This document shows positions 11,837 to 32,523 of a stretch of 64,000 nucleotides of DNA, piece after piece. The translations under genes were made by a program, and so were the position numbers. Source of the DNA: Micromonospora cremea (GTDB lineage Bacteria; Actinomycetota; Actinomycetes; Mycobacteriales; Micromonosporaceae); NCBI RefSeq assembly GCF_900143515.1, contig NZ_FSQT01000002.1:1-64000 (forward strand), read 5' to 3'. Every line of letters begins with the position of its first letter. Position 1 is the stretch's first letter. The notes beneath the pieces are model-generated. The model worked only from the letters and a program-made list of their open reading frames with translations. It had not been told where the DNA came from and made no database searches.

Positions 11837-12206
11837 GGGTCGCCTGGAGGACGATGCCGTTGCCGTCCGGGTCGTCGAAGGTGGCGTACCGGCCCCAGGG
11901 GGCGGACCGGATGCCCCCGTCGGCGAAGTCCACCCCTCGTTCCCGGAGTCGGGCGACGTCCGCGTCCAGGTCGTCGGTCTCCAGCACCAGGCCCTTGAGC
12001 GACCCGGGCGCCATGGTCGGGAACCAGGTGACCAGGGTGAGGGCGGTGGCGGCGCCGGGGGGCGCGACCTGCACCCAGCGCCCGCCGTCGGGGCCCATCG
12101 GGTTGTCCCAGATCAGGTCGAACCCGAGAACGTCGACGTAGAAGTCGCGGGCCCGGTCCTGGTCGGCGACCGGTACGGAGACGAGTTGCACGTGGGTCAC
12201 GGTCAT
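11829..12206 (-). CDS. VOC-superfamily (glyoxalase/bleomycin-resistance fold) protein
   Basis: A 125-residue VOC protein (MTVTHVQLVSVPVADQDRA), a single-domain metal-dependent fold used by glyoxalases, dioxygenases and antibiotic-binding proteins. It contains FYVDVLGFDLIWD and a C-terminal DPDGNGIVLQ segment. ATG at 12206 is preferred over GTG at 12215 because a -10 box TATTGT (12219-12214) lies 7 bases upstream, a leaderless arrangement, and there is no ribosome-binding site. First gene of the operon. Function unassigned. Confidence 0.82.
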   Translation of the reverse strand: MTVTHVQLVSVPVADQDRARDFYVDVLGFDLIWDNPMGPDGGRWVQVAPPGAATALTLVTWFPTMAPGSLKGLVLETDDLDADVARLRERGVDFADGGIRSAPWGRYATFDDPDGNGIVLQATRV

Positions 12207-12213
12207 GCCGACC

Positions 12214-12237
12214 ACAATAGGTAGGAGATTTCCTACC
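12214..12237 (-). promoter_or_regulatory. Promoter -10 box with adjoining ArsR operator
   Basis: On the minus strand a perfect 7-bp inverted repeat GGTAGGA-4-TCCTACC (12237-12220) abuts the -10 box TATTGT (12219-12214), so a bound repressor would sit in the -10/-35 spacer. The pattern is close to TAGGA-n4-TCCTA sites known for ArsR regulators that pair with SRPBCC proteins. Confidence 0.72.
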
Positions 12238-12264
12238 GGTCAAGCCGGACCAGAACGGCGCGAC

Positions 12265-14075: not shown

Positions 14076-14100
14076 GATGAGGACCTACTTCCCGTGGTGC

Positions 14101-14131
14101 GGCCGGTGGGGACGGTCCGCCCCCACCGGCC
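14101..14131 (-). terminator. Intra-operon hairpin between binding-protein and permease genes
   Basis: Perfect 11-bp arms GGCCGGTGGGG and CCCCACCGGCC around a 9-base loop, right after the binding-protein stop and before the permease start. No T run follows. Such hairpins in sugar-transport operons stabilise the upstream mRNA or attenuate readthrough, giving more binding protein than permease. The same gap in the first system (6492-6507) has no hairpin. Confidence 0.6.
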
Positions 14132-14137
14132 GGGGTG

Positions 14138-15553: not shown

Positions 15554-15746
15554 GATTTCTCCTCGGGTCGGGTCGGGCGGTCGCCGGGTGATGGGGGTGG
15601 CGTCCGTCGCATCGAGGCGCTGGGGGATGTTGTGTTGCTTGTCTTCATTTGACACAAAGGCGTTGAAGAATTTCTACGGCAGCGACGCGCGGACTTCAAC
15701 CCCCGGCAGCCGAACCGTTATCACCACCGGCCAGCACCCGGTCGCA

Positions 15747-15758
15747 TAGCCTGAGGCG
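15747..15758 (+). promoter_or_regulatory. -10 box TAGCCT for a leaderless transcript
   Basis: TAGCCT (15747-15752) lies six bases before ATG 15759 and no ribosome-binding site is present, so transcription probably begins at the start codon. Confidence 0.5.
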
Positions 15759-18621: not shown

Positions 18622-19916
18622 GCCGCCACCCCCGCCGCCAAGCGGATCGCGTCGACGAGGATCGCCAGGCCCTCGCGGGCCTCCTCCTCGGTCAGCGTCA
18701 ACGGTGGACCCATCCGCAGCACGTTGCCGTACAGGCCCCCCTTGCCGGCGAGCAGGCCACCCTCCCGGCACGCCTCGAAGACCCGGTTGGTCAGCGCCGC
18801 GTCCGGCTCGCTGGTGCCCGGCCGGACGAACTCGACGCCGAGCATCAACCCCTTGCCGCGCACCTCCGCGACGCAGTCCAGCCCGCCGACCGAGGCGCGC
18901 AGGCCGTCGGCGAGGATCGCGCCGACCCGGGCCGCGTTCGCCTGGAGGTCGTGCGCGATCAGGTAGTCGAGCACCGCGTTGCCGGCCGCCGTGGAGATCG
19001 GGTTGCCGCCGAACGTGGAGAAGCTGATCGCCGGCACCGACTCCAGCACCTCGGCCCGCCCGACGACCCCGGCCAGCGCGAACCCGTTGCCGATGCCCTT
19101 GGCGAAGGTGAGCAGGTCGGGGGTCACCCCGTGCGCCTGGTAGCCCCAGAAGTGCTCCCCGGTACGCCCCCAGCCGGTCTGCACCTCGTCGGCGATGAAC
19201 AGGATGCCGTGCTCGTCGAGGACCTTCTTCCAGCCGGCGAAGAGCCCGTCCGGCGGATGCACGAAGCCACCCACCCCCTGGATCGGCTCGGCGATCAGCG
19301 CCGCCACGTCGCCGGCGGTCTGGGTGGCCAGCACCTCGCGCAGGTCCTCCACCGCCGCGTCGACCTGCTCCTCGGCGCTCAGTCGGGCGAGCAGGCCACG
19401 CACCCGGTCACCCGAGTGCAGCCAGGCCACCTGGAGCGGGTTGAGCCCGCTGGCCGACCAGTTGCGGTTGCCGGTGACGCCCATCGCCGCGTACGACCGG
19501 CCGTGGTAGCTGTTCCGCACCGCCAGGATCTGGTGCGAGCGCCGGTGGTTGGTGGCGACCAGCAGCGCCGCCTCGTTCGCCTCGGTGCCGGAGTTGGTGA
19601 AGAACACCCGGGCGTCCGGGATGCCGGAGCGCTGCGCGATCTTCTCGGCCAGCTCCACCTGCTGCCGGATCAGGTAGAGCGTCGAGCTGTGCACGATGCC
19701 GCTGGCGAGCTGCCGCTCGACCGCCTCGCGGATCTCCGGGATGTCGTAGCCGATCATGTTCGTCAGCACGCCACCGAAGAAGTCCAGGTAGCTGCGGCCC
19801 TGAGCGTCGGTGACCCGGCGGCCCGAGCCGGAGACCAGCTCGATCGGCTCGGCGTAGTACAGCGGCATCCAGGACGGGAGCACGGCCCGGTGCCGGGCCA
19901 GCAGGTCGTCGGTCAT
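18618..19916 (-). CDS. Class III PLP-dependent aminotransferase
   Basis: A 432-residue fold-type I, class III aminotransferase. Cofactor lysine is in LLTFAKGIGNG; also seen are FTNSGTEANEAAL and the metal-like ...FIADEVQTGWGRTG segment. It would convert an omega-amino acid (for example beta-alanine with pyruvate or glyoxylate) to a semialdehyde. That semialdehyde is the substrate of the MmsA-type enzyme encoded immediately downstream with a 4-base overlap. A GAAGGG site precedes the ATG. Exact amino donor is inferred from the neighbour. Confidence 0.87.
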   Translation of the reverse strand: MTDDLLARHRAVLPSWMPLYYAEPIELVSGSGRRVTDAQGRSYLDFFGGVLTNMIGYDIPEIREAVERQLASGIVHSSTLYLIRQQVELAEKIAQRSGIPDARVFFTNSGTEANEAALLVATNHRRSHQILAVRNSYHGRSYAAMGVTGNRNWSASGLNPLQVAWLHSGDRVRGLLARLSAEEQVDAAVEDLREVLATQTAGDVAALIAEPIQGVGGFVHPPDGLFAGWKKVLDEHGILFIADEVQTGWGRTGEHFWGYQAHGVTPDLLTFAKGIGNGFALAGVVGRAEVLESVPAISFSTFGGNPISTAAGNAVLDYLIAHDLQANAARVGAILADGLRASVGGLDCVAEVRGKGLMLGVEFVRPGTSEPDAALTNRVFEACREGGLLAGKGGLYGNVLRMGPPLTLTEEEAREGLAILVDAIRLAAGVAA

Positions 19917-20159
19917 CGTGGCAACCCTTCAGCGGCATTCGTGGATACCGCACGCTCCCACCGGCGGCCGGTGTGGACAACTGCCACTGTGTAGCGCAGC
20001 GCGCGTCCGCTCCTGACAGTGCGTCAGCCGGGCGGCAGGCCGCCGGCGGGCAGCGCCGCGCACCTGGTCGGTGGAGCAAATCGGCCATCGAGGTACCTCC
20101 CGGGCGCCGGCCGCCGCCAGGGTACGACGGGACGACAACGACCCCGTCCCGTCGGCCGG

Positions 20160-20171
20160 TACGATCCGGCG
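20160..20171 (+). promoter_or_regulatory. -10 box TACGAT for a leaderless transcript
   Basis: TACGAT (20160-20165) is six bases before GTG 20172; no ribosome-binding site. A short dyad CTGAC-5-GTCAG at 20013-20027 lies in the same spacer. Confidence 0.5.
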
Positions 20172-21149
20172 GTGCCCGAGCTGCCCGTACCGCTGCCGAT
20201 CGCGGCGCCGGGCGAGCCGACCGACGGGATGGCCGCCGGCATCACCGGGTGGGTCTGCGCGGAGCCGATGCGCCGGCTGGTGGAGCGTTTCGGCGGCAGC
20301 TGGCCGGACGGCGACCTCACCGACGTGCTCCGATTCCTGGACGAGTTCTCCGCCCGACACTGGGACTTTCGGGCCGGTCGGGAGCGGCCCGACGCCCGGG
20401 AGCCCGACCTCGACCCCGGCACCGCCGAACTGGTGCTCGCGTCGGCGGCCGCGCTCGGCCTGACCCGGCCGGTGCCGCCGGTTCGCCCGGCGTACGCCCA
20501 CCTGGTGGTGCTCGGCGGCCTGGCGCACGCCTGCGTACGCCGGGTCAGATACGCCGCGCACCTGCTGCGCGCCGGCCTGCGGGTGGAAGGCGAGGTCGCC
20601 GTGCTGGGCAGCTTCCGGCAACTGGCCGACTGGGAACGCCGGACACTGGCCGACGCCGGCCTGCCAGCCGACGACACCGAGGTGGACGTGCTCGACTCGG
20701 CGGTCCGGCGGGTGTTCCAGGTGACCGCCCCGGCCGAGCAGGACGGTGTCGACGCCGGGCACCCGCACCACTCCTGGTCGTCGCGGACCTACCGGCCAGC
20801 CGGCCTGCCACCGGTACGGGTGCTCGCCGCGCCGTCCAGCGAACCGCACCGGCGGCGCGCCCACACCGCCGACACGCAGCGGTTCTGGGCGGGGCACGTC
20901 CAGCTCGCCCCGGGCGACGAGGTGCTGATGGTCACCGCGCCGATCTACGTGCCGTTCCAGCACTGCGACGCGCTACGCACCCTGGCCGTGCCGTACGGCT
21001 GCGGCATCGACACCGTCGGGGTGGACCCGGCGCTGGCCGACCTGGCCGTGCTGCCCGAGCAGACCCTCACCCCGGGGCGCTACCTGCAGGAGATCCGCTC
21101 GGCGATCCGCTCGATGCGCGCCCTGCACGACCGGCCCGACCCGCGCTGA
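20172..21149 (+). CDS. Hypothetical protein, 325 residues
   Basis: I do not recognise this protein. It starts VPELPVPLPIAAPGEP, has no signal peptide or membrane segment, and appears soluble and arginine-rich. A central HAHL/CVRRVRYAAHLL region and a C-terminal segment with PYGCGIDTVGVDPALADL are visible. GTG start chosen from the leaderless -10 box; a longer upstream reading frame lacks a start signal. It lies alone between the aminotransferase (divergent) and murD (convergent, 18-base gap). Codon use is typical, so it is probably real. Confidence 0.7.
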   Translation: MPELPVPLPIAAPGEPTDGMAAGITGWVCAEPMRRLVERFGGSWPDGDLTDVLRFLDEFSARHWDFRAGRERPDAREPDLDPGTAELVLASAAALGLTRPVPPVRPAYAHLVVLGGLAHACVRRVRYAAHLLRAGLRVEGEVAVLGSFRQLADWERRTLADAGLPADDTEVDVLDSAVRRVFQVTAPAEQDGVDAGHPHHSWSSRTYRPAGLPPVRVLAAPSSEPHRRRAHTADTQRFWAGHVQLAPGDEVLMVTAPIYVPFQHCDALRTLAVPYGCGIDTVGVDPALADLAVLPEQTLTPGRYLQEIRSAIRSMRALHDRPDPR

Positions 21150-21167
21150 GCCCGGCCGGCCGAGGCG

Positions 21168-22517
21168 TCAGGCCCCGGCCGTGTCGGCGACGGCCTGGGC
21201 GAAGACCTCCGAGCGGTGCTCGAAGTTGCGGAACTGGCCATAGCTGGGGGCGGCCGGTGACAGCAGCACCACGCCGCCGGCCGGAGTGAGCTTGCGGGCC
21301 AGCCGGACGGCCGCCACCAGGTCCTCGACCAGCTCCGTACGCACCCCGGGAAGCCCGTCCAGGGCGCCCACGATCCGGGTACCGCTGTCCGGGATGCCGA
21401 TCACGGTCAGCTCCCGCTCCGCCAGGTGCTCGGCCAGCGGCGTGTAGTCCAGACCCCGGTCGTTGCCCCCGACGATCACGGTCAACGGCCGGCCGTCGTA
21501 CGCGTCGATGGCGTGCATGGCCGCGTACGGGCTGGTGGCCAGGGTGTCGTCGACGAACGTCAGCCCGGACGGGTCGGTGATCTCGGTAAGCCGGTGGGCC
21601 AGCCCCTGGAACTCGGCGACCGCGACGGCGAGGCTGTCCTTGTCGGCCACCACGTCCACGCCGAGCGCGTCGAGCACGGCGAGCGCGACACAGAGGTTGC
21701 CCTCGTTGTGCCGGCCGACCAGCGGCAGCACGGCGCGCGGGAACAGCGGCCGGTCGCCGAGGTGGAACCAGGGCGCGCCGTCCGCCCCGGTGGCGACGTT
21801 GGTGGTGTCGGGGCGACCGGTACGGACCGCCGGGCGGTCACCCAGCTCGGCGGCGAGCCGGGGGTCGGCGCCGTTCACCACGATCGTCTCCGGGTCGTGG
21901 GCGAGCAGGTTGAGCTTGTCCCGGTAGTACTCCCGCTCCCCGCCGTGCGCGTCCAGGTGCTCCGGGAAGAGCGCGGTGACCACGGCCACCCGGGGCGAGT
22001 CGGTGAGGTCGCTGCACTGGTAGCTGGACAGCTCCAGCACGTACAGCTCGGCCTCGGGCAGGTCGAGGGTGGGCACCCCGATGTTGCCGCCGAAGACGTT
22101 CGGCCGGCCCATCGCGGTGAGCAGGTGGCTAATCAGGCTGGAGGTGGTGCTCTTGCCCTTGCTGCCGGTGACCCCGACGGTGCGCGCGGCGTGGTCGGCC
22201 ATCCACAGCGCGGTGCCCTGGGTGACGGTGACGCCGCGCCGGCGCAGCTCGACCAGCCACGGGTGGGTCTGCGGCACGCCTGGCGAGCGGACCACCACGT
22301 CGGCGGCGGCCAGCCGCTCGAATCCCGCCTCGCCAGTGACCAGCGGGGCCGCCTCGGCCAGCGGGCCGTCCCACGGCAGCGAGAGGAAGTTGGCGCTGTC
22401 GTCGACGGCGACCAGCTCGGCCGGGCCGTGCGCGGCGATCGCGGTCACCGCGGCCCGGCCCTCGCGGCCGGTCCCCCAGACGGCGACGGTACGTCCGCGC
22501 AGGTCAGACAGGCGCAC
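21168..22517 (-). CDS. murD: UDP-N-acetylmuramoyl-L-alanine-glutamate ligase (MurD/MurD2 type)
   Basis: A 449-residue Mur ligase that adds glutamate to UDP-MurNAc-L-Ala in the cytoplasm, ATP dependent. N-terminal Rossmann-like domain (VWGTGREGRAAV), P-loop GVTGSKGKSTTSSL, then the Mur ligase central and C-terminal domains (GLDYTPLAEHL region). GAGGAG precedes the GTG start at 22517. The divergent neighbour is a MurL-type epimerase, so this is probably the MurD2 variant that uses L-glutamate, with MurL converting the product to the D form. Ordinary D-glutamate specificity cannot be excluded from sequence. Most actinobacteria carry murD in the dcw cluster, so an isolated copy beside murL supports the alternative. 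Confidence 0.85.
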   Translation of the reverse strand: MRLSDLRGRTVAVWGTGREGRAAVTAIAAHGPAELVAVDDSANFLSLPWDGPLAEAAPLVTGEAGFERLAAADVVVRSPGVPQTHPWLVELRRRGVTVTQGTALWMADHAARTVGVTGSKGKSTTSSLISHLLTAMGRPNVFGGNIGVPTLDLPEAELYVLELSSYQCSDLTDSPRVAVVTALFPEHLDAHGGEREYYRDKLNLLAHDPETIVVNGADPRLAAELGDRPAVRTGRPDTTNVATGADGAPWFHLGDRPLFPRAVLPLVGRHNEGNLCVALAVLDALGVDVVADKDSLAVAVAEFQGLAHRLTEITDPSGLTFVDDTLATSPYAAMHAIDAYDGRPLTVIVGGNDRGLDYTPLAEHLAERELTVIGIPDSGTRIVGALDGLPGVRTELVEDLVAAVRLARKLTPAGGVVLLSPAAPSYGQFRNFEHRSEVFAQAVADTAGA

Positions 22518-22597
22518 GGGGCTCTCCTCGGTGGTCGCGGCGGCGGTGGAGCGGGCACGGTCCGGCGCAGCCGGACACGGCCGGACGAACCAGGGCC

Positions 22598-22608
22598 TAG
22601 TATGGCGT
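22598..22608 (+). promoter_or_regulatory. -10 box TAGTAT for murL in the divergent murD-murL spacer
   Basis: TAGTAT (22598-22603) precedes GTG 22609 by five bases, a leaderless arrangement. The 91-base spacer 22518-22608 must also hold the murD promoter. Confidence 0.5.
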
Positions 22609-23958
22609 GTGCCCAACGAGCAGCTCCGGCGGATGGACGCCTTCGCCTTCCCGTCCTACTCGATCGACTTCGCCACCGGCGAGGTGTTGTTCGACTACGC
22701 CCTGACCGGCCCGGCCGGCGAGCAGCGGTTCACCGAGGTGATCACCCTTCCGCTGCCGGCGGAGCCGCCGTCGGACGAGACGGTGGCCACCCTCGGTCGG
22801 GTGCTGGAGCTGCTGCACCTCGTCGCCGGGGTCAGCTACTACAAGGCCGCCGCGCCGCCCCGGCTGGTGCTGCCGGCGCCGCTGGGCGCGGCCACCGCCG
22901 ACTACGTCACCGCCGTCTACACCAAGGGCCTGGCGGAGTACGCGTACCGCAACCAGCTCCCGCACGTGCTGGAGCTGCGCCCGGAGGTGCCGGCCGGTGA
23001 GGTGACGCCGGCACGGGTGTACGACAACTCCGACCGTCGCCCGCTCTCCGCTGTCGGCGGCGGCAAGGACTCCATCGTCAGCCTGGAGGCGCTGCGCCGG
23101 GCCGAGCTGGACCCGGTGCCGTTCTCGGTCAACCCGAACCACGTGATCGTCTCGGTCAACGAGGCGTCCGGACTGACCCCGCTGGCCGCCCGGCGGCGGA
23201 TCGACCCGGTGCTGTTCGACCTGAACGCGACCGGCGCGCTGAACGGCCACATCCCGGTCACCGCGATCAACTCGCTGATCGCGGTCGCGACCGCGGTGCT
23301 GCACGGGCTCGGCCCGGTGGTGATGTCCAACGAGCGCTCGGCGTCCGACCCGAACCTGGTCTGGAACGGTCATGAAATCAACCACCAGTGGTCCAAGGGC
23401 GTCGAGGCGGAAGGGCTGCTGCGCGCGGCGCTGGCCGAGCACGCCGGCCTGACCGAGCCGTACTTCTCGCTGCTGCGCTCGCTGTCCGAGCTGCACATCG
23501 CCCGGCTGTTCGCCGAGTTCACCCGGTACGACGACGTGGTGACCAGCTGCAACTCCGCGTTCAAGCTGCGCAACGCGAGCGAGCGCTGGTGCCGCAACTG
23601 CCCGAAGTGCCGGTTCGTCTTCCTGGCCATGGCGCCGTTCATGCCACGGGAGCGGGTCACCCACATCTTCGGCGGCGACCTGCTCGCCGACCCCGAGCAG
23701 ATCCCCGGCTACCGGGAGCTGCTCGGCGTGGACGGGCACAAGCCGTTCGAGTGCGTGGGCGAGGTCGAGGAGTCGGTGGTGGCTCTGGGCCTGCTCGCCG
23801 AGCAGGACCAGTGGCGCGACGCCCCGGTGATCCGCGCCCTGGTCGACGCCGTCCCCGCCACCGCCTGGTCGGCCGTGGCCACCTCGGACGTCTTCACCCC
23901 CGGCGGCCCCAACCACATCCCCGACACCTACGCCAAGGCCCTGACCTCCCTCACCTGA
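22609..23958 (+). CDS. murL: UDP-MurNAc-L-Ala-L-Glu epimerase (MurL-type)
   Basis: A 449-residue cytoplasmic protein starting VPNEQLRRMDAFAFPSYS. It has a PP-loop-like ATP site (LSAVGGGKDSIVSLEAL, around residue 145) and a cysteine cluster (WCRNCPKCRFVFLAM, around residue 330). This combination and length match MurL, which epimerises the terminal L-Glu of UDP-MurNAc-L-Ala-L-Glu and was described in Xanthomonas with MurD2. The divergent MurD here completes that pathway. The GTG start follows a -10 box by five bases and lacks a ribosome-binding site. Assignment rests on recalled family features, not a search. Confidence 0.8.
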   Translation: MPNEQLRRMDAFAFPSYSIDFATGEVLFDYALTGPAGEQRFTEVITLPLPAEPPSDETVATLGRVLELLHLVAGVSYYKAAAPPRLVLPAPLGAATADYVTAVYTKGLAEYAYRNQLPHVLELRPEVPAGEVTPARVYDNSDRRPLSAVGGGKDSIVSLEALRRAELDPVPFSVNPNHVIVSVNEASGLTPLAARRRIDPVLFDLNATGALNGHIPVTAINSLIAVATAVLHGLGPVVMSNERSASDPNLVWNGHEINHQWSKGVEAEGLLRAALAEHAGLTEPYFSLLRSLSELHIARLFAEFTRYDDVVTSCNSAFKLRNASERWCRNCPKCRFVFLAMAPFMPRERVTHIFGGDLLADPEQIPGYRELLGVDGHKPFECVGEVEESVVALGLLAEQDQWRDAPVIRALVDAVPATAWSAVATSDVFTPGGPNHIPDTYAKALTSLT

Positions 23959-23994
23959 CCCGCACCCCCTCCCGTCCCCTCGCCCGCTCCCTGG

Positions 23995-24050
23995 TGATCA
24001 AGAGGTTTGCGTCACCAGGGACGGGGTTGCCGACGCGAACCTCTTGATCA
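23995..24050. terminator. Long hairpin between convergent murL and pucR-type genes (GATC family)
   Basis: Perfect 13-bp arms TGATCAAGAGGTT (23995-24007) and AACCTCTTGATCA (24038-24050), extended inward by GCGTC/GACGC pairing. Located between two gene 3' ends; probable bidirectional terminator. Confidence 0.65.
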
Positions 24051-24068
24051 ACAAGGGGAGGCCGGGGT

Positions 24069-25838
24069 TCAGGGGGTGCGGACCGCGTCCAGGGCCAGTA
24101 GGGCCACGTGCAGGGAGAGGGAGGCTTCGACCGAGTCGAGGTCGACGTCGAGGATGCGGGCGATGCGGGCCAGGCGCTCGTAGAACGCCGGCCGGGACAG
24201 GTGCGCGGCGGCGGCGCCGGCGGACTTGTTGCGCCCCTGTTCCAGGTACGCGCGCAGGGTGTCGAGCAGCTGCTCCCGGGGGTGCCGCGCGTCGTACTCC
24301 AGCAACGCCCCCAGCTCACGCTCCACGAACGTCTGCAACCGGGGCTCGTCGCGCAGCAGGTGCAGCAGACCGGCCAGGCCGACGTGCGGCAGCCGGAAGA
24401 TCGGCAGGTCACGCCGGTCCCGGCGGGCCGCCTCGGCGATCTGGCGCGCCTCGACCAGTGACCGTCGCGCCTCCCGCAGGCTGCCCACCCCGGATCCGGC
24501 CGCCACGATCATCCCGCCCGGAGCACCGCCGGCAGCCCGGGACGGGTCGGCGCCGGACACCAGCCGGGACGCGTCCGCGCCGGACACCGTGCGGACCGCG
24601 CCGGCGTCGAGGCGTACCCGGCGCAGCGCGGCGGCGAACGCGGACAGTGCGCGGTCCTCGGCGGCCGGGTCCGGCAGGGCCAGCAGCGCGCCCACCGAGT
24701 GGTCGTCGACCGCGCTGGTCAGCGCGGTCAGCTTCGCCTCCCGCAACGCCTGGCCGACCGCCTCGGACAGGTCCCGCAGCCGGGCCGGGCCCGCCTCGGG
24801 GCCACCCTCGCCGGCCGGGTCGTCGGCCCGGTGCCGGACCATCACGCCGACGAGGTGCCGGCGCTCCAGCACCACGCCGAGCGCCCTGGCCCGCAAGGCC
24901 ACCTCGTCCACGGGCCGGGAGTGATCGAGCAGCGCGGTCAGCAGGGTGCGGTGGATCTGCCGTTCCAGCCCCTCGGCGTCGCGGCGGATCAGCCGGCCCA
25001 ACGCGAGGGTGGACGCGGCCCGCTCGATCAGGATGGTGAGCCGGGTCGGCGGTCCGCTGCCGGGGCGAGCGTCGGGCCCCCCCGGGTCGACGCCCCGGCG
25101 GCTGGGCAGCTCCCCGCCGGACGGCCAGCGCAGCAGCAGTCGCCCCCAGTCCTGCCCCCGGGCGCCGACGACCGTCACCAGCCAGCCACTGTCGGGGTCG
25201 TACGCGGTCCGCCCCGCCGGCCGGATCCGCCGGGAGTGCTGCTCCCAGCCGTCCAGCAGCAGCTCGGCGCTTTCCCCCGCCGGGTCGTACCCCAGCACCT
25301 GCCGGGACAGGTTCTCCAACACCACCGGGCAACCGGACAGCTCGGCGGCCTGCCGGATCACCTCGGCGGCGTCGGCGCCCTCGACGGAGAGGTCGGTGAA
25401 ACGCTGGTGGATCTCCTCGGTGGCGCGCAGCTCGGTGAGCTGCGCGTCGACGATCAGCGCGTGCACCGCCTCGGTGATCCGTACGAACGGGGTGGCCCGG
25501 CGCAGCTCCACCAGGGGCAGGCCGCGCCGCTCGGCGGCGGCGGCCATCACCCGGGGCACCCCGCTGACGTACCGGCGGCCCAGCTCGACGACGAGCCCGG
25601 AGACGCCGACGTCGGCCAGGTCGCCGATGAACGCGCGCAGCCCCGCGTCGTCGCCGGGCAGCCCGATGCCGGTGGTGAGCACCAGCTCGCCACCGCCGAG
25701 CAGGGTGGCGATGTCCGGCACCTCGGCGACGTGCACCCAGCGGACCGGCCGCTCCAGCCCGCCGTCCCCGGCCACGACGCGCGGCGCGCCGTGGCGGACG
25801 GGGTCGAGGGCAAGGACCTCACGGACGGTAGGGAACAC
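24069..25838 (-). CDS. PucR-family transcriptional regulator
   Basis: A 589-residue regulator. Domains: N-terminal PucR purine-catabolism domain (FPTVREVLALDPV; WVHVAEVPDI; LVLTTGIGL), a central GGDEF-like CdaR region, and a C-terminal PucR helix-turn-helix (YLEQGRNKSAGAAAAHLSR... LARIARILDVDLDS). Family members activate purine, GABA or amino-acid catabolic genes. GTG at 25838 is chosen because PucR proteins normally begin right at this motif and the -10 box TAGCGT lies seven bases upstream. A 10-bp inverted repeat spans promoter and start, suggesting autoregulation. Target genes are not evident nearby. Confidence 0.85.
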   Translation of the reverse strand: MFPTVREVLALDPVRHGAPRVVAGDGGLERPVRWVHVAEVPDIATLLGGGELVLTTGIGLPGDDAGLRAFIGDLADVGVSGLVVELGRRYVSGVPRVMAAAAERRGLPLVELRRATPFVRITEAVHALIVDAQLTELRATEEIHQRFTDLSVEGADAAEVIRQAAELSGCPVVLENLSRQVLGYDPAGESAELLLDGWEQHSRRIRPAGRTAYDPDSGWLVTVVGARGQDWGRLLLRWPSGGELPSRRGVDPGGPDARPGSGPPTRLTILIERAASTLALGRLIRRDAEGLERQIHRTLLTALLDHSRPVDEVALRARALGVVLERRHLVGVMVRHRADDPAGEGGPEAGPARLRDLSEAVGQALREAKLTALTSAVDDHSVGALLALPDPAAEDRALSAFAAALRRVRLDAGAVRTVSGADASRLVSGADPSRAAGGAPGGMIVAAGSGVGSLREARRSLVEARQIAEAARRDRRDLPIFRLPHVGLAGLLHLLRDEPRLQTFVERELGALLEYDARHPREQLLDTLRAYLEQGRNKSAGAAAAHLSRPAFYERLARIARILDVDLDSVEASLSLHVALLALDAVRTP

Positions 25839-25949: not shown

Positions 25950-26376
25950 TCACCAGGGGTCGTCGCGGCTCAGCTCCCAGCAGGCCACGGCCGTAGCGGC
26001 GGCCACGTTGAGTGAGTCGACGCCACGGCGCATCGGGATGACCACCCGGACGTCGGCGGCGTCCATGGCGGCCCGGGTCAGGCCGGCGCCCTCGGCGCCG
26101 AGCAGCAGCGCCGAGCGGGCCCGCTGGGCGGCGTCGAGGCGTTGGACAGGCACCGCGTCCGGCGCCGGGGTCATCGCCAGCACGGTGAACCCGGCCGCCC
26201 GGACCTCGGCGAACGCGTCCGGCCAGGGATCCAGCTTCGCGTACGGCACGGCGAAGACCTCGCCCATGCTCACCCGGACGCTGCGCCGGTAGAGCGGGTC
26301 GGCGCAGCTCGGCGAGAGCAGCACCGCGTCCACCCCGAGGGCCGCCACCGCCCGGAAGATCGCGCCGAGGTTCGTG
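25950..26376 (-). pseudogene. TrmH/SpoU RNA methyltransferase, 3' half of the interrupted native gene
   Basis: Encodes the C-terminal SpoU methyltransferase domain: NLGAIFRAVAALGVDAV, LLLGAEGAGLT and the SAM-knot motif VVIPMRRGVDSLNVAAA. These match the complete copy at 26443-27249. The missing N-terminal half is at 30141-30545 on the same strand, 3.8 kb upstream. At 26374-26376 the native sequence stops at the core GTG and element sequence begins. An open frame continues through the junction to 26417, so a 155-residue hybrid fragment could be made, but it lacks the RNA-binding half. Confidence 0.9.
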
Positions 26377-26390
26377 CACAACTCCAAACT
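26364..26390. other. Attachment site junction (left end of the element)
   Basis: Host sequence ...gaggttcGTG meets element sequence cacaactccaaactg. The three bases GTG (26374-26376) recur at the other end (30160-30162). Joining the outer flanks gives gaggttcGTGtggttgttg, which restores the NNHTNLGA codons of the methyltransferase gene, as expected for attB. Confidence 0.82.
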
Positions 26391-26430
26391 GCACCCCAGC
26401 CCTCCTCCCCAGCTCACGCAGCCGATGAGC

Positions 26431-26442
26431 CAGACTCGGCGG
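26431..26442 (+). promoter_or_regulatory. -10-like box CAGACT for the element-borne methyltransferase gene
   Basis: CAGACT (26431-26436) lies six bases before GTG 26443. The native gene has CAGAAT at the same distance from its GTG (30557-30552), supporting both starts. Confidence 0.4.
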
Positions 26443-27249
26443 GTGACCGTAGAGCTGATCTCTGACCCGGCGGACGAGCGGATCGCCGACTACCGCGCCC
26501 TGACTGACGTGGAGCTGCGCACCAGGTGGGAGCCGCCGCACGGGCTGTTCATCGCCGAGGGGGAACTGGTGCTGCGCCGGGCGCTGCGGGCCGGGTATCA
26601 GCCGCGGTCCTTCCTGGTGGACGCGAAGCGGGTGGACCAGCTCGGCAGCCTGCTCGACCACGGGCCGGCGTACGCGGCCAGTCAGGAGGTGCTGGAGGCG
26701 GTCACCGGCTTCCATGTCCACCGGGGCGTACTTGCCAGCTTCCACCGCAAGCCGTTGCCGGCGGCAGAGGAGGTGTTGGCCGGCGCCCGCCGGGTGGCGG
26801 TGCTCGAAGGGATGAATAACCACACGAACCTCGGAGCTGTGTATCGGGGCGCAGCCGCCCTGGGCATCGACGCCGTGCTGCTGTCGCCGACGTGCGCGGA
26901 CCCGCTCTACCGGCGCAGCGTGCGCGTGAGCATGGGCGAGGTGTTCGCGGTGCCGTACGCGAAGCTGGACCCGTGGCCGGCGGGGCTGGAGCTGGTGCGG
27001 GCGGCTGGCTTCACGATCCTCGCCATGACGCCGGCACCCGACGCCGTGCCGATTCAGCGCCTCACCGCGGCTCAGCGAGCGAAGGCCGCCCTGCTGCTGG
27101 GAGCCGAAGGCCCCGGCCTGACGGAGGCGGCGCAGGCGGCCAGCGACGTGCGGGTGGTCATTCCGATGCGGCGCGGCGTCGACTCCCTCAACGTGGCGGC
27201 GGCTGCTGCTGTGTCGTTCTGGGAGCTGGGCCGCGAGGATGAGGGCTGA
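26443..27249 (+). CDS. TrmH/SpoU-family RNA 2'-O-methyltransferase carried by the element
   Basis: A complete 268-residue SpoU methyltransferase that would methylate a ribose in tRNA or rRNA using SAM. N-terminal substrate-binding domain (IADYRALTDVELRTRWEPPH), then the SPOUT domain with NNHTNLGAVYRGAAALG, LLLGAEGPGLT and VVIPMRRGVDSLNVAAA. It is closely related to, but clearly diverged from, the split native gene on both sides, so it came in with the element and is not a tandem duplicate. GTG at 26443 is chosen by alignment with the native start. Codons around the attachment-site equivalent (26806-26853) are unusually A/T-ending (GAA, AAT, GGA, GCT, TAT, GCA). It probably restores the function lost by insertion. 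Confidence 0.88.
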   Translation: MTVELISDPADERIADYRALTDVELRTRWEPPHGLFIAEGELVLRRALRAGYQPRSFLVDAKRVDQLGSLLDHGPAYAASQEVLEAVTGFHVHRGVLASFHRKPLPAAEEVLAGARRVAVLEGMNNHTNLGAVYRGAAALGIDAVLLSPTCADPLYRRSVRVSMGEVFAVPYAKLDPWPAGLELVRAAGFTILAMTPAPDAVPIQRLTAAQRAKAALLLGAEGPGLTEAAQAASDVRVVIPMRRGVDSLNVAAAAAVSFWELGREDEG

Positions 27250-27324
27250 CGTTTTCCCAGGTCAAGCGTTGGTCCATGTCACCAACTATCGTATAGCCGG
27301 GCTAGTCGGACGTATCGTGCCAAT
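27250..27324. promoter_or_regulatory. Short A/T-richer spacer with dyads after the methyltransferase gene
   Basis: Contains TTGGT-7-ACCAA and CTAT-CGT-ATAG dyads and a possible -10 TATCGT near 27288. It may promote the small gene that follows; nothing here is decisive. Confidence 0.25.
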
Positions 27325-27573
27325 GTGTGGCAACTCACTGCGGGTGATCTCGCGTACTAGCTCGACGGCGAGCGACGCCCCGTCCGGTGCCGGGTCGAGC
27401 TGGTGACCGACACCCGCGTCTACCTTCGAGCCACCGCGAAACGACTACGGCCGGCGCAAGGACGAGGTCTGGTACGAGGCGCGGCTATCCCGGCGCGTGG
27501 CCCCGCGCGGAGCGGTCTACATCCGCGACGGCAAGGGCCACTTCGACTGGCGGTCGGTCGACATCGCCGCGTG
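27325..27573 (+). pseudogene. Broken small gene in the element
   Basis: One frame reads VWQLTAGDLAY, a TAG stop at 27358, then LDGERRPVRCRVELVTDTRVY. It continues best in another frame as FEPPRNDYGRRKDEVWYEAR and on to ...IRDGKGHFDWRSVDIAA with a stop at 27571-27573. Together this looks like one ~80-residue protein interrupted by a stop and a frameshift. I do not recognise the family; the tail resembles small accessory proteins I associate with actinobacterial prophages and integrative elements. Sequencing error is possible. Confidence 0.45.
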
Positions 27574-27597
27574 ATTTTCCAAATGGGAAAGGGCAAC

Positions 27598-27636
27598 AAA
27601 AAAGGCCCGGCCCCCCAACACGGGGAGGCCGGGCCT
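27598..27636 (-). terminator. Intrinsic terminator for leftward element genes
   Basis: Perfect stem AGGCCCGGCC / GGCCGGGCCT with a C/G-rich loop. On the minus strand it is followed by TTTTTTG, a classical T run. It lies about 20 bases after the stop of the 85-residue gene. Confidence 0.85.
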
Positions 27637-27653
27637 CTTGTCTTGCTGTTCGG

Positions 27654-27911
27654 TTAGTCGGTGATGAGGACCCTGACGGGCTCGGCCGGCAGGCGCAGGT
27701 TCCGGGCCAGCCCGGCGATGCCGGCCGCCCCGATCTCGCGTGCCTCGTCCTCCGTCTTGGCGGTCACCGAGGCGACGATGCGGGTCTTGCTGGTCCCGTC
27801 CACCGTCATGCTGGCCAACTCCACCCGCTCGTCAAGCGCTGGACCCTCTTCGGGGTACGGCGTGACGGGCGCACCTTGGTACTCGACTGCCACGCCCCAC
27901 GTCTTGTCCAT
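27654..27911 (-). CDS. Small element protein, 85 residues
   Basis: Starts MDKTWGVAVEYQGAPVTPYP with TAGGATCAG just upstream. A soluble, acidic, beta-rich sequence with VELASMTVDGTSKTRIVASV and a helical end (EAREIGAAGIAGLARNLRLP). No family recognised; the pattern suggests a small alpha/beta domain. It follows the truncated gene by 8 bases, is followed by a strong terminator, and has intact coding statistics, so it is probably a real gene of the element whose promoter may have been lost with the upstream deletion. Confidence 0.7.
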   Translation of the reverse strand: MDKTWGVAVEYQGAPVTPYPEEGPALDERVELASMTVDGTSKTRIVASVTAKTEDEAREIGAAGIAGLARNLRLPAEPVRVLITD

Positions 27912-27919
27912 GCCTGATC

Positions 27920-28270
27920 CTACTTCTTGGGCTTCGGGCAGGACACGATCCGCGCCTGCGGCTTCTCGTCGGGGCTGAAGGCGTACGGCGTGCCGCTCGG
28001 CCCGGTGCCGGTCACCATCGCCCGCGTCCGCCACTTGCCGGGCAGGCAGAAGTAGCTGACGAAGGAGCAGGACACCCAGGCGCCGGCCGGCGGGATCTCC
28101 TCGCAGGCCGCCTTAGCGTCACCCTTCGGCGCCCACAGGCCCCACTCGCCGTTGAGTTCCTTCTCCAGCCAGACCTGCGCCTTGTGGCTGACCGGCGGCA
28201 TGTCGCAGGTGCTCTCGGCCTCGGCGATCACCGCCGCCTTGCCGGAGACCAGCTTCGCGACCGGCGGCAT
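27920..28270 (-). pseudogene. 5'-truncated element gene, cysteine-rich protein
   Basis: The frame reads from MPPVAKLVSGKAAVIAEAES to IVSCPKPKK (116 codons). It has paired cysteines (TCDMPP, AACEEIPP, SCSFVSYFCLPGKW, VSCPKP), typical of an exported domain, but there is no signal peptide. The upstream sequence on this strand is out of frame and antisense to another gene remnant. I infer that the gene lost its 5' end at about 28268. It could also be a shorter genuine gene using the ATG at 28270, but no ribosome-binding site is visible. Confidence 0.6.
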
Positions 28271-28365
28271 GCCCCTACTGCGGCCGGGTCTGGCGCCCGA
28301 AGTACGTCGAAGCCTTCGGCGACGGCGTCTGGTACTGGACGCCGACAAAGCTGGTGGCGGAGTGA
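28267..28365 (+). pseudogene. 3' remnant of a zinc-ribbon protein gene
   Basis: In this frame the sequence reads ACPYCGRVWRPKY and ends ...VWYWTPTKLVAE with TGA at 28363-28365. The CPYCGR knuckle suggests a small zinc-binding protein. There is no start codon or upstream coding; the remnant begins exactly where the leftward gene at 27920-28270 also loses its 5' end. Confidence 0.5.
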
Positions 28366-28500
28366 GCACACCGTCCAAGGCCGAGTGCTTCGACCGATTC
28401 TGGGACGTGATCGCCATGGCCCAGAAAAACCTCAGCCGGCGCAAGGCGGCCGAGGCAGCCCGCCCGGGCACCCGCAACGCCAGCCAAGTAATACGGAAGC
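28362..28500 (+). pseudogene. Small reading frame coupled to the zinc-ribbon remnant
   Basis: GTG at 28362 overlaps the previous stop (GTGA). It encodes VSTPSKAECFDRFWDVIAMA and then a basic stretch. There is no stop in frame before the terminator at 28502, whereas a TAA lies one frame off at about 28490, so a one-base indel near the end is likely. Function unknown; possibly a small DNA-binding protein, given its basic C-terminus (NLSRRKAAEAARPG). Confidence 0.4.
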
Positions 28501-28501
28501 C

Positions 28502-28535
28502 CCCCGTTGGCCTCAATCGGTTGGCGGGGGGCCTT
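28502..28535 (+). terminator. Hairpin terminator between convergent element genes
   Basis: GCCCCCCGTTGGCC pairs with GGTTGGCGGGGGGC around a 6-base loop. Four central pairs are G-U on the plus-strand RNA but A-C mismatches on the other strand, so it works for rightward transcripts. CCTTTCC follows. Confidence 0.65.
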
Positions 28536-28545
28536 TCCGTGTTTC

Positions 28546-30102
28546 TCAGGCGGCTTCCTTGGCCCACTTCGGCACAGGGACCACCTTCTTGCCCGGCTCA
28601 TACGGCCCAGGCATGACCTTGATGGTGGTCACCAGGGTAAGCAGCGCCTCTCGACGCTCGGCCGGGGTGTACTCGTGCCACACGTCCCGCAGGACGCTGA
28701 ACTTCTGCTGAGCGTAGGCGCCGGCAGCCTCGGACCGGGACACGGCGGAGTCCCGCTTCTCCTCGGCGGCCTCGATCTCCTTCTTCAGCACGTCCCGCCT
28801 CCGCTGGTAGTCCGCCTTGTCCAGGTCGCCCTCGGCGTACATCTCCTGGTATCGGGACAGCTTGGCCTTCAGCTTGCGGATCTCCCGCTCCAGCTCAGTA
28901 GCATCCGCCACCGCCTCACGGCCCGCCCGAAGGCGCTCCCGCCGCTCCTCGATGTCCTCGCCGCCCTCGGCCTCCCGGTCCAGCCAGGCGAGCACGTCGG
29001 CCTCGGCGCGGGTGTTGGACACCGAGTTGAACGGGTGCTCCTTGCGGTCGCGCGCCCGGTAGCAGGTCCAGGAGTGCTTCTTGTTCCGGCCCGAGTACAC
29101 GGACACCATCGGGCCGCCGCAGCCCTCCCAGGCGCACGTCATGATGCCGGACAGGGAGTGCACCGCGGTCCGCAGGCGGGGCGCCATCGTCGCCTGCTCG
29201 TCGCGGCGCTTCTTGTAGGCGTCCCACGTCTCACGCTCGATGATCGGCTCGTGCTTGCCCTCGCGCCAGAGGTCGAAGCACCAGATCGAGCGCCCGTTGC
29301 TCCCGCCGGTATCGCTGGAGGTGGGCGGCTCGGTGCGCTCGCGGATCAGGCCGGCGGCGAAGCCGGTGTCCATCATTCTGGAGATCGACTGAAGGGACCA
29401 GCGGTTGCCCTTGACGGTGGTCAGCCCCATGGCGTTCCACTCCATGGCTAGGGCGCGCATGGACTCGCCGGCCACGTACCGCTCGTAGGCGTTCTTCAGG
29501 GCCTTCGCCTGGTCCTGGTTGACGGTGTAGCCGGTCCGCCTCTCGTAGTCGTAGCCGAACCGGGGAGCCCCGGTGTGCGGTAGGCCGTCGCGGCGCCGCT
29601 TGGCCTGCGCCTCCTTCCAGGAGTCGGCGATCATGTCGGACTGAAGCTCGGCGATGAGCAGCATCTGGTTGCGGCTGAACTTGCCGATCGACGTCTTGGG
29701 GTCGAAGTCCTCGGTCGCCGCCCGGACCTTCCCGCGCGCCTCGTCCTCGACCATGCTGAGGTAGATCAGCGACTCCTTCATGTTGCGGCCCCAGCGGGAC
29801 CACTTCCACAGGATCACGATCTTCCAGTGACCCGCGTTGATGCCGGCCACGGTCTCGTTGACCCGGCGCTTGGTGAAGTTGCGACCCGACTTGTCGATGT
29901 CGTAGATCCAGGCGACGATCACCAACCCTTCGCGGTCGGTCAACGTCTTGATCGAGTGCTCCTGGATCTCGGGCGAGATAAGGTCGTCACCTCGCCCGTG
30001 CACATCCGAGACGCGGACGTAGCCGAGCACCCGCTTAGCGAGCGGGATACGCTCCAGCTCCTCCGGGGACACCAACCACTGGAGGCCCTGCTTCTCCGGC
30101 AC
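28546..30102 (-). CDS. Large serine recombinase (integrase)
   Basis: A 518-residue serine integrase. The N-terminal resolvase domain has RVLGYVRVSDVHGRGDDLIS with the nucleophilic serine in YVRVSD, and the arginine-bearing ILWKWSRWGRN. Then come the recombinase domain (GLPHTGAPRFGYDYERRTGY), a zinc ribbon (MTCAWEGCGGPMVSV...WTCYRARDRKEH) and a coiled coil (ELEREIRKLKAKLSRYQEMY). Such enzymes integrate phages and elements between attP and attB without accessory factors. GTG at 30102 is preferred over 30108 because GGGAGG ends six bases before it. It ends 50 bases from the right attachment core and appears intact. Confidence 0.93.
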   Translation of the reverse strand: MPEKQGLQWLVSPEELERIPLAKRVLGYVRVSDVHGRGDDLISPEIQEHSIKTLTDREGLVIVAWIYDIDKSGRNFTKRRVNETVAGINAGHWKIVILWKWSRWGRNMKESLIYLSMVEDEARGKVRAATEDFDPKTSIGKFSRNQMLLIAELQSDMIADSWKEAQAKRRRDGLPHTGAPRFGYDYERRTGYTVNQDQAKALKNAYERYVAGESMRALAMEWNAMGLTTVKGNRWSLQSISRMMDTGFAAGLIRERTEPPTSSDTGGSNGRSIWCFDLWREGKHEPIIERETWDAYKKRRDEQATMAPRLRTAVHSLSGIMTCAWEGCGGPMVSVYSGRNKKHSWTCYRARDRKEHPFNSVSNTRAEADVLAWLDREAEGGEDIEERRERLRAGREAVADATELEREIRKLKAKLSRYQEMYAEGDLDKADYQRRRDVLKKEIEAAEEKRDSAVSRSEAAGAYAQQKFSVLRDVWHEYTPAERREALLTLVTTIKVMPGPYEPGKKVVPVPKWAKEAA

Positions 30103-30140
30103 AACCACCCTCCCTGACCTGGGGAAATGACGGGTGCACT

Positions 30141-30545
30141 TTAGCGCCTCCCACGTTTAGTGTGGTTGTTGACGTCCTCCAGGATCACCACCCGGCGTGC
30201 GGCGGCGAGCACCTCGGCCGCCGTTGGCAGCGGCCGGCGGTGGAACGACGCCAGCACCCCCCGGTGTACGTGGAAGCCGGTGGCCCGTTGCAGCACGTCC
30301 TGCGTCGCCGCGTAGACCGGCGCGTCGCCGGTGTCCAGGTCGGCGAGCTGGTCGATCCGCTTGGCGTCGACCAGGTACGACCGGGCCGGGTAGCCGGCGC
30401 GCAGCGCGCGGCGCAGCACCAGTTCGCCCTCGGCGATGAACAGGCCGTGCGGCGGTTCCCAGCGGGTGCGCAGTTCGACGTCGGTGAGCGCGCGGTAGTC
30501 GGCGATCCGGTCGTCGTTGGGGTCGGTGATCTGGTGGACGGGCAC
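30141..30545 (-). pseudogene. TrmH/SpoU RNA methyltransferase, 5' half of the interrupted native gene
   Basis: Encodes the N-terminal RNA-binding half from GTG 30545 (VPVHQITDPNDDRIADY) to the codons for DVNNHT. It then reads six element-derived codons (KRGRR, stop at 30141). The SAM-binding half is at 25950-26376. A -10-like CAGAAT lies six bases before the start, so the fragment may still be transcribed toward the integrase. Confidence 0.9.
30148..30175. other. Attachment site junction (right end of the element)
   Basis: Element sequence cccacgttta meets host sequence at the core GTG (30160-30162) followed by tggttgttgac. Joining the two inner flanks gives the predicted attP cacgtttaGTGcacaactc, which is partly self-complementary around the core. 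Confidence 0.82.
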
Positions 30546-30633: not shown

Positions 30634-32523
30634 ATGGCGGGCGGCGTACCGGACCCGACGGGAAGGACCAGCCAGGTGAGCGCAGACCACACCGCGCCGG
30701 GCGAAGCGGGCACCCTGCCCCGGCATCCGACCGTCGCGGACCACATCGTCTCCCGCCTCTTCAGCTGGGGCGTGCACCGTTACTTCGGCTACCCCGGTGA
30801 CGGCATCAACGGCCTCACCTCGGCGCTGCAACGCACCAACGAGCGGGCCCAGTTCGTCCAGGTGCGGCACGAGGAGACCGCCGGCTTCGCCGCCTCGGCG
30901 CACGTCAAGTACGGCGGCGGGCCGCTGGGCTGCGCGCTGGTGACCAGCGGTCCGGGTGCCATCCACCTGCTCAACGGCCTGTACGACGCCAAGCTCGACC
31001 ATCAGCCGGTGGTCGCCCTCGTCGGGCACACGGCGGTCACCGCCGAGGGTGGCGGCTACTACCAGGAGGTCGACCTGCTCGCCCTCTACAAGGACGTGGC
31101 CGCGGCGTTCCTGGCCCAGCTCGACCACCCGGCGCAGGTCCGCCACCTGGTCGACCGGGCGTGCCGTACGGCGCTGGCCCGGCGTACCGTCACCGCGCTG
31201 GTGCTCCCCTCGGACCTTCAGGACGAGCCGGCCGTGCTGGACCCGCCGCACGCGCACGGCTACTACCAGACCAGCAACGTGCCGAGCAGCACGCCCACCG
31301 TGCCGCCGGAGGCCGACCTGCGTCGGGCCGCCGAGGTGCTGCGCGGCGGCGAACGGGTGGCGATGCTGGTGGGGCAGGGCGCGCTCGGCGCGCAGGACGA
31401 GGTCCGCGAGATCGCCCACCGGCTCGGTGCCGGGGTGGCGACCGCGCTGCTCGGCTTCACCGTCGTCGATCACCGGGAGCCGTGGGTGACCGGCGCGATC
31501 GGGCTGCTCGGCACCCGGCCGAGCTGGCAGCTGATGACCGGCTGCGACCGGCTGTTGATCGTGGGCAGCAACATGCCGTACTCGGAGTTCTACCCGCCGC
31601 CCGGCCAGGCTCGCGGGGTGCAGATCGACGTGGACGGCACCCAGCTCGGGCTGCGGTACCCGACCGAGGTGAACCTGACCGGCGATGCCGCTCCCACGCT
31701 GCGGGCGCTACTGCGCGAGCTGGGCCCCGGTCCCGGGCCGACCGCCTGGCGCGCCGAGATCACCGAGGCCACCACGGCGTGGCGCCGCGTGCAGCGCGAC
31801 CTGGCCGAGCAGCCCGCCGACCCGGTCAACCCGCAGTTGCTGTTCAGCACGCTCAGCGAGCGGCTGCCCGAAGACGTGATGCTCGCCGTGGACTGTGGCA
31901 CCGCGACCGCCTGGTACGCCCGGCACGTGCTGGTCCGCCCCGGGATGCTGGCCAGCCTGTCCGGCACGCTGCTGTCCATGGGCGGCGCCATGCCGTACGC
32001 GCTGGGCGCCAAGTTCGCCAACCCCGACCGGCCCCTCGTCGCGCTGATCGGCGACGGCGCGATGCAGATGAACGGGGTCAACGAGCTGATCACCGTGGCC
32101 AAGTACTGGCGGAGCTGGGCCGACCCACGGTTCGTGGTGCTGGTGCTCAACAACCGGGATCTGGCGTTCGTCAGCTGGGAGCAGCGCTCCAGTGAGGGGA
32201 CGCCGATGTTCCCGGACAGTCAGCAGCTGCCGGACATCGGCTACCACCAGTGGGCGCAGGTGCTGGGGTTGCACGGCGAGCTGGTCGACTCCCCCGATCA
32301 GGTGCCGCAGATCTGGGAGCGGGCCCTCGCGGCCGACCGGCCCGTGGTGATCAACGCACTGGTCGACCCGGCCGAGCTGATGCTGCCACCGCACTTCACG
32401 GCCGAGCAGGCGCGCAAGACCGCGGCGGCGGTGCTGCGCGGCGACACCGACTGGGCCGGGATCATCCGACGCGGCCTACCCGCGACCCTCGCCAGCTACC
32501 GGCCCCGCCGCCGCGAGCGCTGA
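30634..32523 (+). CDS. Thiamine-pyrophosphate enzyme, pyruvate oxidase/dehydrogenase type
   Basis: A 629-residue TPP-dependent enzyme of the acetolactate synthase/pyruvate oxidase superfamily. The N-terminal PYR domain includes GYPGDGINGL and the catalytic Glu region VRHEETAGFAASAH. A central domain follows, then the PP domain with the cofactor motif GDGAMQMNGVNELI...VLNNRDL. It resembles PoxB-type proteins that decarboxylate pyruvate to acetate, but lacks clear assignment among family members. ATG at 30634 has a strong GGAGGGAAGGGG site; a second possible start is GTG 30676. Divergent from the native methyltransferase 5' half. Confidence 0.82.
   Translation: MAGGVPDPTGRTSQVSADHTAPGEAGTLPRHPTVADHIVSRLFSWGVHRYFGYPGDGINGLTSALQRTNERAQFVQVRHEETAGFAASAHVKYGGGPLGCALVTSGPGAIHLLNGLYDAKLDHQPVVALVGHTAVTAEGGGYYQEVDLLALYKDVAAAFLAQLDHPAQVRHLVDRACRTALARRTVTALVLPSDLQDEPAVLDPPHAHGYYQTSNVPSSTPTVPPEADLRRAAEVLRGGERVAMLVGQGALGAQDEVREIAHRLGAGVATALLGFTVVDHREPWVTGAIGLLGTRPSWQLMTGCDRLLIVGSNMPYSEFYPPPGQARGVQIDVDGTQLGLRYPTEVNLTGDAAPTLRALLRELGPGPGPTAWRAEITEATTAWRRVQRDLAEQPADPVNPQLLFSTLSERLPEDVMLAVDCGTATAWYARHVLVRPGMLASLSGTLLSMGGAMPYALGAKFANPDRPLVALIGDGAMQMNGVNELITVAKYWRSWADPRFVVLVLNNRDLAFVSWEQRSSEGTPMFPDSQQLPDIGYHQWAQVLGLHGELVDSPDQVPQIWERALAADRPVVINALVDPAELMLPPHFTAEQARKTAAAVLRGDTDWAGIIRRGLPATLASYRPRRRER

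Follow-up and report, generated by a model that had tools for sequence, protein, structure and literature searches.

An inserted element splits trmH in Micromonospora cremea and carries a complete, apparently foreign copy of the gene

Our analysis of a 64,000-nucleotide stretch of the Micromonospora cremea genome (contig NZ_FSQT01000002.1, positions 1 to 64,000; hereafter the window) showed that the single-copy gene trmH, encoding an RNA methyltransferase of the SpoU type, is split by a 3,783-bp inserted element (26377..30159) whose two ends are occupied by the gene of a large serine integrase and by a second, complete trmH. It is very probable, judging from the sequence, that a site-specific element has broken the host's only trmH and carries a full foreign spare that keeps the function while the element is integrated. 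The insertion, the split, the full copy, its foreign origin, the purifying selection on it and the recurrence of the arrangement are read directly from sequence; from these, the copy is predicted to be expressed and enzymatically equivalent, it would be carried for compensation, and the element may still be mobile.

The native gene, on the minus strand of a 7.76-Mb genome in two contigs (G000), is broken between NNH-T and NLGA. Its 3' half (25950..26376, minus strand) has an intact reading frame and a SpoU_methylase domain (1.5e-31, Pfam), and the open reading frame (ORF) of its 5' half (30160..30545, minus strand) continues into the insert as far as 30141, where it terminates in NNHT-KRGRR after five foreign codons. 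The trinucleotide CAC (30160..30162 on the integrase side, 26374..26376 on the other) is the sole sequence common to the two junctions, which show no long direct repeat. When the insert is removed and the flanks are joined in silico, an uninterrupted gene of 269 amino acids (aa) results, reading ...EDVNNHTNLGAIFRAVAAL..., and the 5' half is about 90% identical in nucleotides to the 5' part of the intact gene of Micromonospora sicca (G237). The integrase (520 aa; 28546..30108, minus strand) is co-oriented with the native 5' half, lies 51 nt from the junction and contains the Resolvase (PF00239, 1.1e-16), Recombinase (PF07508, 8e-13) and Zn_ribbon_recom (PF13408, 2.1e-6) domains; an arginine and a serine in its N-terminal region are invariant among nine aligned integrases. 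The original prediction, made from the letters of the window, that a serine-integrase element splits the native methyltransferase gene is thus borne out by the reading of the junctions and by the Pfam domains.

The same prediction held that the element carries a complete, diverged copy of the methyltransferase on the opposite strand, and this too stands. The copy (274 aa; 26425..27249, plus strand, opposite to the native gene; SpoU_methylase PF00588, 2.5e-29) occupies the element end opposite the integrase, starting either at an ATG 48 nt inside that end or at a GTG about 67 nt inside it (near 26443), which aligns with the native start. It is 81% identical to the native 3' half and 74% to the native 5' half, and its relatives of solved structure are 7qiu, 9h1k and 4x3l. 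Within its own genome the matches are the copy, the two native halves and then four weaker paralogues at 32-40% identity; there is no further full-length gene. Both genes were placed in a tree built from 114 TrmH proteins, the bootstrap of which was still short of full convergence. The joined native gene falls within the host genus, next to the genes of G261 (L082) and G144 (L083), and the copy is sister to that of G313 (genus g26; support 98/85), outside the host genus. The 5' half of the copy is nearest to G313 (87%) and the 3' half to members of the host genus, g1 (90%; G313 86.5%); separate quick trees of the two halves disagree, and the native sequence of the host itself is found in neither of them. 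Because the halves differ in nearest relative and their trees conflict, the copy is possibly a mosaic.

The copy is under purifying selection, with ratios of nonsynonymous to synonymous substitution (dN/dS) of 0.13 against G313, 0.23 against L033 and 0.23 against the native gene. The native halves give 0.07 and 0.09 against two close relatives, which give 0.07 against each other; from such low values, without decay, the insertion appears to be recent. We consider it very unlikely that the copy is there for a benefit of its own, as a variant methyltransferase that alters ribosome or tRNA modification and acts alone once the native gene is disrupted: it groups with the ordinary chromosomal trmH genes of the family, and although the superfamily includes the NshR/TsnR resistance methyltransferases, its weak match to these reaches 50 and 39 bits against cut-offs of 425 and 500. 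An argument of this type, on removal of the native partner, has been made by the authors of a recA island (PMC4405046).

The remainder of the insert holds little that could be named. An 85-aa ORF (27654..27911, minus strand) has no Pfam match and no match among the phages searched; an 80% identical relative in M. sicca (L091 531-782) likewise lies downstream of a serine integrase, a different one confirmed as such by Pfam. That this protein might be an excision factor is a pure guess. The adjoining ORF region (27920..28567, minus strand), without family match, is probably decayed cargo. As no structural, replication or transfer gene was found by Pfam or NCBIfam among the insert ORFs tested, the insert does not classify as a prophage, plasmid or conjugative element, and it is a small, site-specific, integrative element that has probably decayed in part.

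A second split trmH was found in Actinoplanes aureus NEAU-A11 (G011). The order there is a native 5' remnant (residues 9-41), about 15 kb of other sequence, a complete trmH that runs the opposite way and, 212 bp beyond it, the arm GTGCAGTTTG followed by the native 3' half. The latter begins at the same codon as in M. cremea, so that the target is split at one specific site in both genomes, but here the 3' half is frameshifted near its start and the 5' half is truncated: the element has decayed while the replacement trmH stayed. The A. aureus copy nests among the type-E trmH genes of Actinoplanes described below (99/84 in the 114-protein tree). Since the two copies fall in different clades, they were acquired independently, and a shared element-borne trmH lineage is ruled out. 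We also considered a captured chromosomal segment around the copies and rejected it, only the gene itself matching (in A. aureus together with about 32 bp at the 5' end).

The ends of the insert provide a further link between these loci. On the side of the copy, the CAC core and the adjoining attachment arm read GTGCAGTTTGGAGTTGTGCAC (26374..26394, minus strand), and the pattern GCAGTTTG is found at the same distance from the CAC core in three trmH junctions, those of M. cremea, A. aureus and M. sicca. An exact scan for this pattern in genome_contigs, where 84,980 species are represented by a single genome each and records very near the genome of the window may be missing, gave five matches: the M. 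sicca and A. aureus records, with trmH, and three metagenome bins without trmH by tblastn. On the integrase side the arm motif is CTAAAGTGCAC (30134..30144, minus strand); the form AAAGTGCA is found near this junction, just inside the 5' junction of the G009 insert discussed next and beside the integrase of G098, and is rare, with 14 occurrences, these three included, in 1.9 Mb of fetched sequence.

The third case concerns a different target. In G009, of the same genus as A. aureus, the gene of an MFS transporter is interrupted by an insert of about 16 kb (L317-L318, G009:C25:60000-96000, 7116-24366; also L026). The 5' part of this gene ends ...FAYVSGSSFV and the 3' part starts FQDEYG..., the junctions sharing TTCGT. 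The insert holds a relative of the M. cremea integrase (44% identical), which presumably made the insertion. Directly downstream of that relative is an MFS gene that is complete (426 aa) and runs opposite to the split one; it shows 80% and 70% identity to the two native parts (dN/dS 0.17 and 0.25). Copy and integrase are here neighbours in the middle of the insert and not at opposite ends.

The integrase has a match at 1e-30 in 11 of 353 other genomes of the family, the relatives at L020-L025 and L027-L030 being 45-52% identical where full length (L028 and L030 are partial, at 63-65%; L029 is 30% identical). Eleven loci were fetched (18 kb each for ten, 4 kb for one), none of them with trmH. 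Related integrases that sit at other sites and lack a trmH cargo had been named in advance as evidence against the proposed strategy; such relatives do exist, yet they fit a cargo matched to the target. The broken targets include a GH5-like secreted gene (L021 and L028, by eye), a DUF418-like gene (L030, by eye) and esterases (L024 and L025, the latter of the PHB-depolymerase type, PF10503). At L021, L024, L025, L028 and L030 the integrase lies just downstream of the 5' part of the target and co-oriented with it, as in M. cremea and with the exception of G009 (L026), as if borrowing the target's promoter. In G052, two neighbouring paralogues (80% identical over 603 aa) both weakly match the broken target, and it is possible that this insert also carries a spare; paralogous pairs are present in G043 as well. 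No integrase relative was confirmed by peptide pattern in genome_contigs and no trmH in viral_contigs, and the fetched stretches around ten viral integrase relatives contained no trmH. That trmH was picked up by chance, as cargo unrelated to tolerating the insertion, is highly improbable in our judgement. Although most integrase relatives lack a replacement gene in the fetched stretches, and trmH is missing altogether in a few lineages, the same cargo in the same opposite orientation has been found in two genera with copies of different origin, the G009 insert carries a spare of its own, different target, none of the integrase-relative loci has trmH, and the copies are under purifying selection.

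Other elements have solved the problem at the same trmH codon by supplying a 3' fragment. In M. sicca, G458 (L166) and G480 (L167), the last two from other families, the native 5' half is fused in frame to a 3' part brought by the element, which is not the case in M. cremea. The mosaic trmH of M. sicca has a 5' part 90% like the native type of M. cremea and G144 and a 3' part 89% like G154 and 79% like M. cremea; it is followed by argG (PF00764/PF20979) and then by a native-type 3' remnant (87-88%) beside the arm. The fused genes of G458 and G480 have a short repeat at the junction, and the native 3' remnant, starting at residues 131-135, lies 7.6 and 10.1 kb away; the G458 island encodes the type I restriction-modification proteins HsdM, HsdS and HsdR, and the G480 island at least HsdM. 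The Camvirus-type phages Sitrop (MT701598, L080) and Kamino (PP750867, L081) have, next to a serine integrase, only the trmH 3' part, which begins around residue 119; the Sitrop integrase aligns at 26% to that of M. cremea. In the Sitrop annotation this 3' part is not listed as a gene, and the accessible text of the Kamino paper does not mention TrmH (PMC11536984). These classical insertions at the codon or, in the two phages, near it, together with the differing nearest relatives of the copy halves, might suggest that the M. cremea element was once of the 3'-fragment type, gained the remaining part of the gene and was rearranged. We regard this as extremely unlikely: the native 5' half enters non-coding DNA past the junction, the copy is complete, with its own start, and unlike both native halves, and A. 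aureus and G009 likewise carry a full copy on the opposite strand.

We propose that the large serine integrase would recombine its attP attachment site with an attB site inside the SpoU motif-1 codons (NNH-T/NLGA), splitting trmH, and that the complete copy, beside the attachment site and on the opposite strand, would keep the RNA methyltransferase function during integration. Because the integrase of M. cremea starts 51 nt past the junction, with the native trmH start upstream of it, it may be transcribed from the native trmH promoter. Were the element to excise precisely, the native gene would be whole again, and the element would therefore not be an addiction module at first, contrary to the earlier suggestion; lock-in would come only after the native halves decay, as in A. 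aureus.

Several observations weigh against a spare-carrying element of this kind. The replacement gene had been expected to have its own promoter, which is not borne out by a sigma-70 scan (0 sites found, 0.2 expected). The NNHTNLGA core is retained in the copy (3 of 24 nt differ); in the 16-codon window around it 16 of 48 nt differ, against a mean of 10.7, with 6.7% of windows as high, and the copy may still be recognised by its own integrase. If the copy is a mosaic, its position as sister to G313 may be insecure for the 3' half. No integrase relative was recognised at the A. aureus trmH locus, the one relative in that genome being on another contig. The G009 integrase lies 6 kb from the junction and, unlike that of M. 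cremea, is not co-oriented with the target, and among ten extended regions (18-54 kb) around integrases a split gene paired with a full one was found in G009 only. Finally, trmH is unmatched in 5 of 354 genomes of the family (at 1e-22) and in 56 of 374 of the class (at 1e-20), so that compensation is perhaps not strictly needed.

The original prediction called the target an important gene. It is a conserved one: in the genus, trmH is matched at 1e-40 in 158 of 160 genomes, with exactly one match in 155, the exceptions being the window genome with three, M. sicca and G144 with two each, and G255 and G260 with none; in the family, 349 of 354 genomes have the C-terminal half at 1e-22; and in the class, 318 of 374 have a match at 1e-20. 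It is not indispensable, however, since the five family genomes without a match include a one-contig assembly (G348) that shows distant trmH paralogues only. In the genus survey no element-free relative had two full trmH genes side by side, which would have spoken against the prediction, except for a pair in G144 (C59:4370-5182 and 8973-9785), where two equal-scoring matches lie 4 kb apart on one contig in opposite orientation; this pair is probably an assembly palindrome or an inverted duplication. Some irregular cases were also seen. The sole close trace of trmH in G255 (L118) is a C-terminal fragment of some 40-70 residues, reflecting loss or an assembly gap; partial remnants stand beside other insertions in G170 and G255; and G547 and G687 each have two full trmH paralogues on separate contigs.

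In the genus Actinoplanes (g4; L281-L300, L172-L201) the trmH slot is occupied by one of two lineages about 70% identical, type N, mostly with the signature EDVNNHTNIGAVFRG, and type E, with EGLNTHTNLGALFRS or, in one genome, EDLNTHTNLGALFRS. We typed 43 of the 67 genomes, 30 as E (A. aureus included) and 13 as N. Orientation was scored against three neighbouring genes, which we labelled SISQ, RibD and DOWN. Among scorable genomes, type E is opposite to SISQ in 17 of 17, to RibD in 5 of 5 and to DOWN in 27 of 28, and type N is co-oriented with them in 10 of 12, 11 of 11 and 4 of 8, respectively. On a host tree built from ferrochelatase and FabI (the latter missing in 6 of 49 rows), at least eight changes between E and N are required over 36 genomes (23 E, 13 N; A. 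aureus left out), and a single E clade is rejected by the approximately unbiased test (p-AU 2.8e-48). Orientation follows type in about five of six independent pairs and never the reverse, which is not significant in a sign test (p 0.0625; 34 genomes, hand-coded). The nearest sampled relative of A. aureus, G066, has an intact forward type N (99/94), and A. aureus is therefore a type N turned towards E by insertion.

These switches could be taken to mean that a group of serine-integrase elements strategically carries a full, opposite-strand spare of the gene it lands in, captured anew each time, which outlives the element and drives turnover of the host gene, with M. cremea as a fresh insertion, A. 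aureus as an intermediate and the other Actinoplanes as the end state. We can put this forward only tentatively, as a possibility that is itself rather doubtful. Against such turnover, native-gene remnants around the flipped type-E genes gave weak matches only (E 0.007 or more with in-frame queries; one of the six queries was out of frame), and the GCAGTTTG arm was present in none of 29 loci and in none of ten 8-kb type-E loci. In most of these genomes the host-tree markers share a contig with trmH, at a distance of 7-50 kb, and the type-E gene is inverted in g11 and g24 too, possibly as the result of a single ancient inversion. Given the lack of convincing remnants and arms, the linked markers and the inverted E in those two genera, the other switches in Actinoplanes are at least as likely to stem from homologous exchange between two old alleles.

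That a full replacement gene is a new way of tolerating integration, as was first thought, is not borne out, as the Vibrio cholerae S24 recA mobile element (RME) has a whole, divergent recA gene at the far end from its integrase, and its authors argue that the copy renders the disruption harmless (PMC4405046). Like the M. cremea element, the RME breaks a housekeeping gene that is conserved, does so at a specific site, and has the copy at one end and the integrase at the other. It differs in size (32.8 kb against 3.8 kb), in its recombinases (a phage integrase and XerS against a serine integrase), in its target (recA against trmH) and in that excision and both orientations were shown experimentally, whereas the M. 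cremea element is described from sequence. Among the other relatives, the G009 insert shares with it a split target and a complete, diverged, opposite-strand copy, and differs in the MFS target, the size of about 16 kb and an integrase 44% identical; Sitrop and Kamino share the serine integrase beside trmH sequence, in their case the 3' part only. In Mycobacterium abscessus, a serine integrase targets the sixth codon of a SpoU-like methyltransferase gene (the prophage site attB-29), and the authors were unsure whether expression is restored; the codon is thus different, and the accessible text reports no replacement copy (PMC10654092). Integrative mobilizable elements with serine recombinases are found in streptococci inside the RNA methyltransferase gene rumA, disrupted as a dispensable target, again with no replacement reported in the accessible text (PMC5704250). 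In a literature search that reached few subscription papers, we found no paper on a serine integrase with trmH and attB, or on TrmH as an integration site of a genomic island, and the M. abscessus paper alone on SpoU with attB and an integrase. The prediction of a full-length replacement as an insertion strategy is upheld in so far as it recurs in trmH (A. aureus) and in the MFS gene (G009), but the principle was already known; what is new is a group of serine-integrase elements whose targets differ and whose spares match those targets.

The immediate neighbours of the split gene recur in relatives. Downstream lies a PucR-type regulator (PF07905; 24069..25925, minus strand), which adjoins trmH in relatives too, and upstream a divergent thiamine-pyrophosphate enzyme, acetolactate-synthase-like (30676..32523, plus strand), which also adjoins the intact trmH of genus relatives. 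In 14 of 16 neighbourhoods (L301-L316), picked mostly for the presence of argG, trmH is followed by an argG gene (95-98% identical), but not in the window genome; the argG of M. sicca accompanies a trmH 3' part of foreign origin. Elsewhere in the window, positions 1500-7994 form an inverted repeat with arms of at least 2.9 kb each and a 639-bp spacer, duplicating transporter-like genes; the scan started at 1500, and the arms consist of five abutting stretches, each 100% complementary. This is either a recent palindrome or an assembly artefact.

Up to now the RME was the one described element that we found to carry a full spare of the gene it breaks. The present analysis provides three cases, from two genera and with two target genes; in two of the three the serine integrases are related. 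It also allows the full-spare and 3'-fragment solutions to be compared at one trmH codon. With a defined attB in a conserved gene, the 520-aa integrase could serve as an integration tool for actinomycetes. For the biology of these bacteria, the arrangement offers a testable route by which housekeeping genes may be replaced by foreign ones, of which an inverted orientation would be the telltale.

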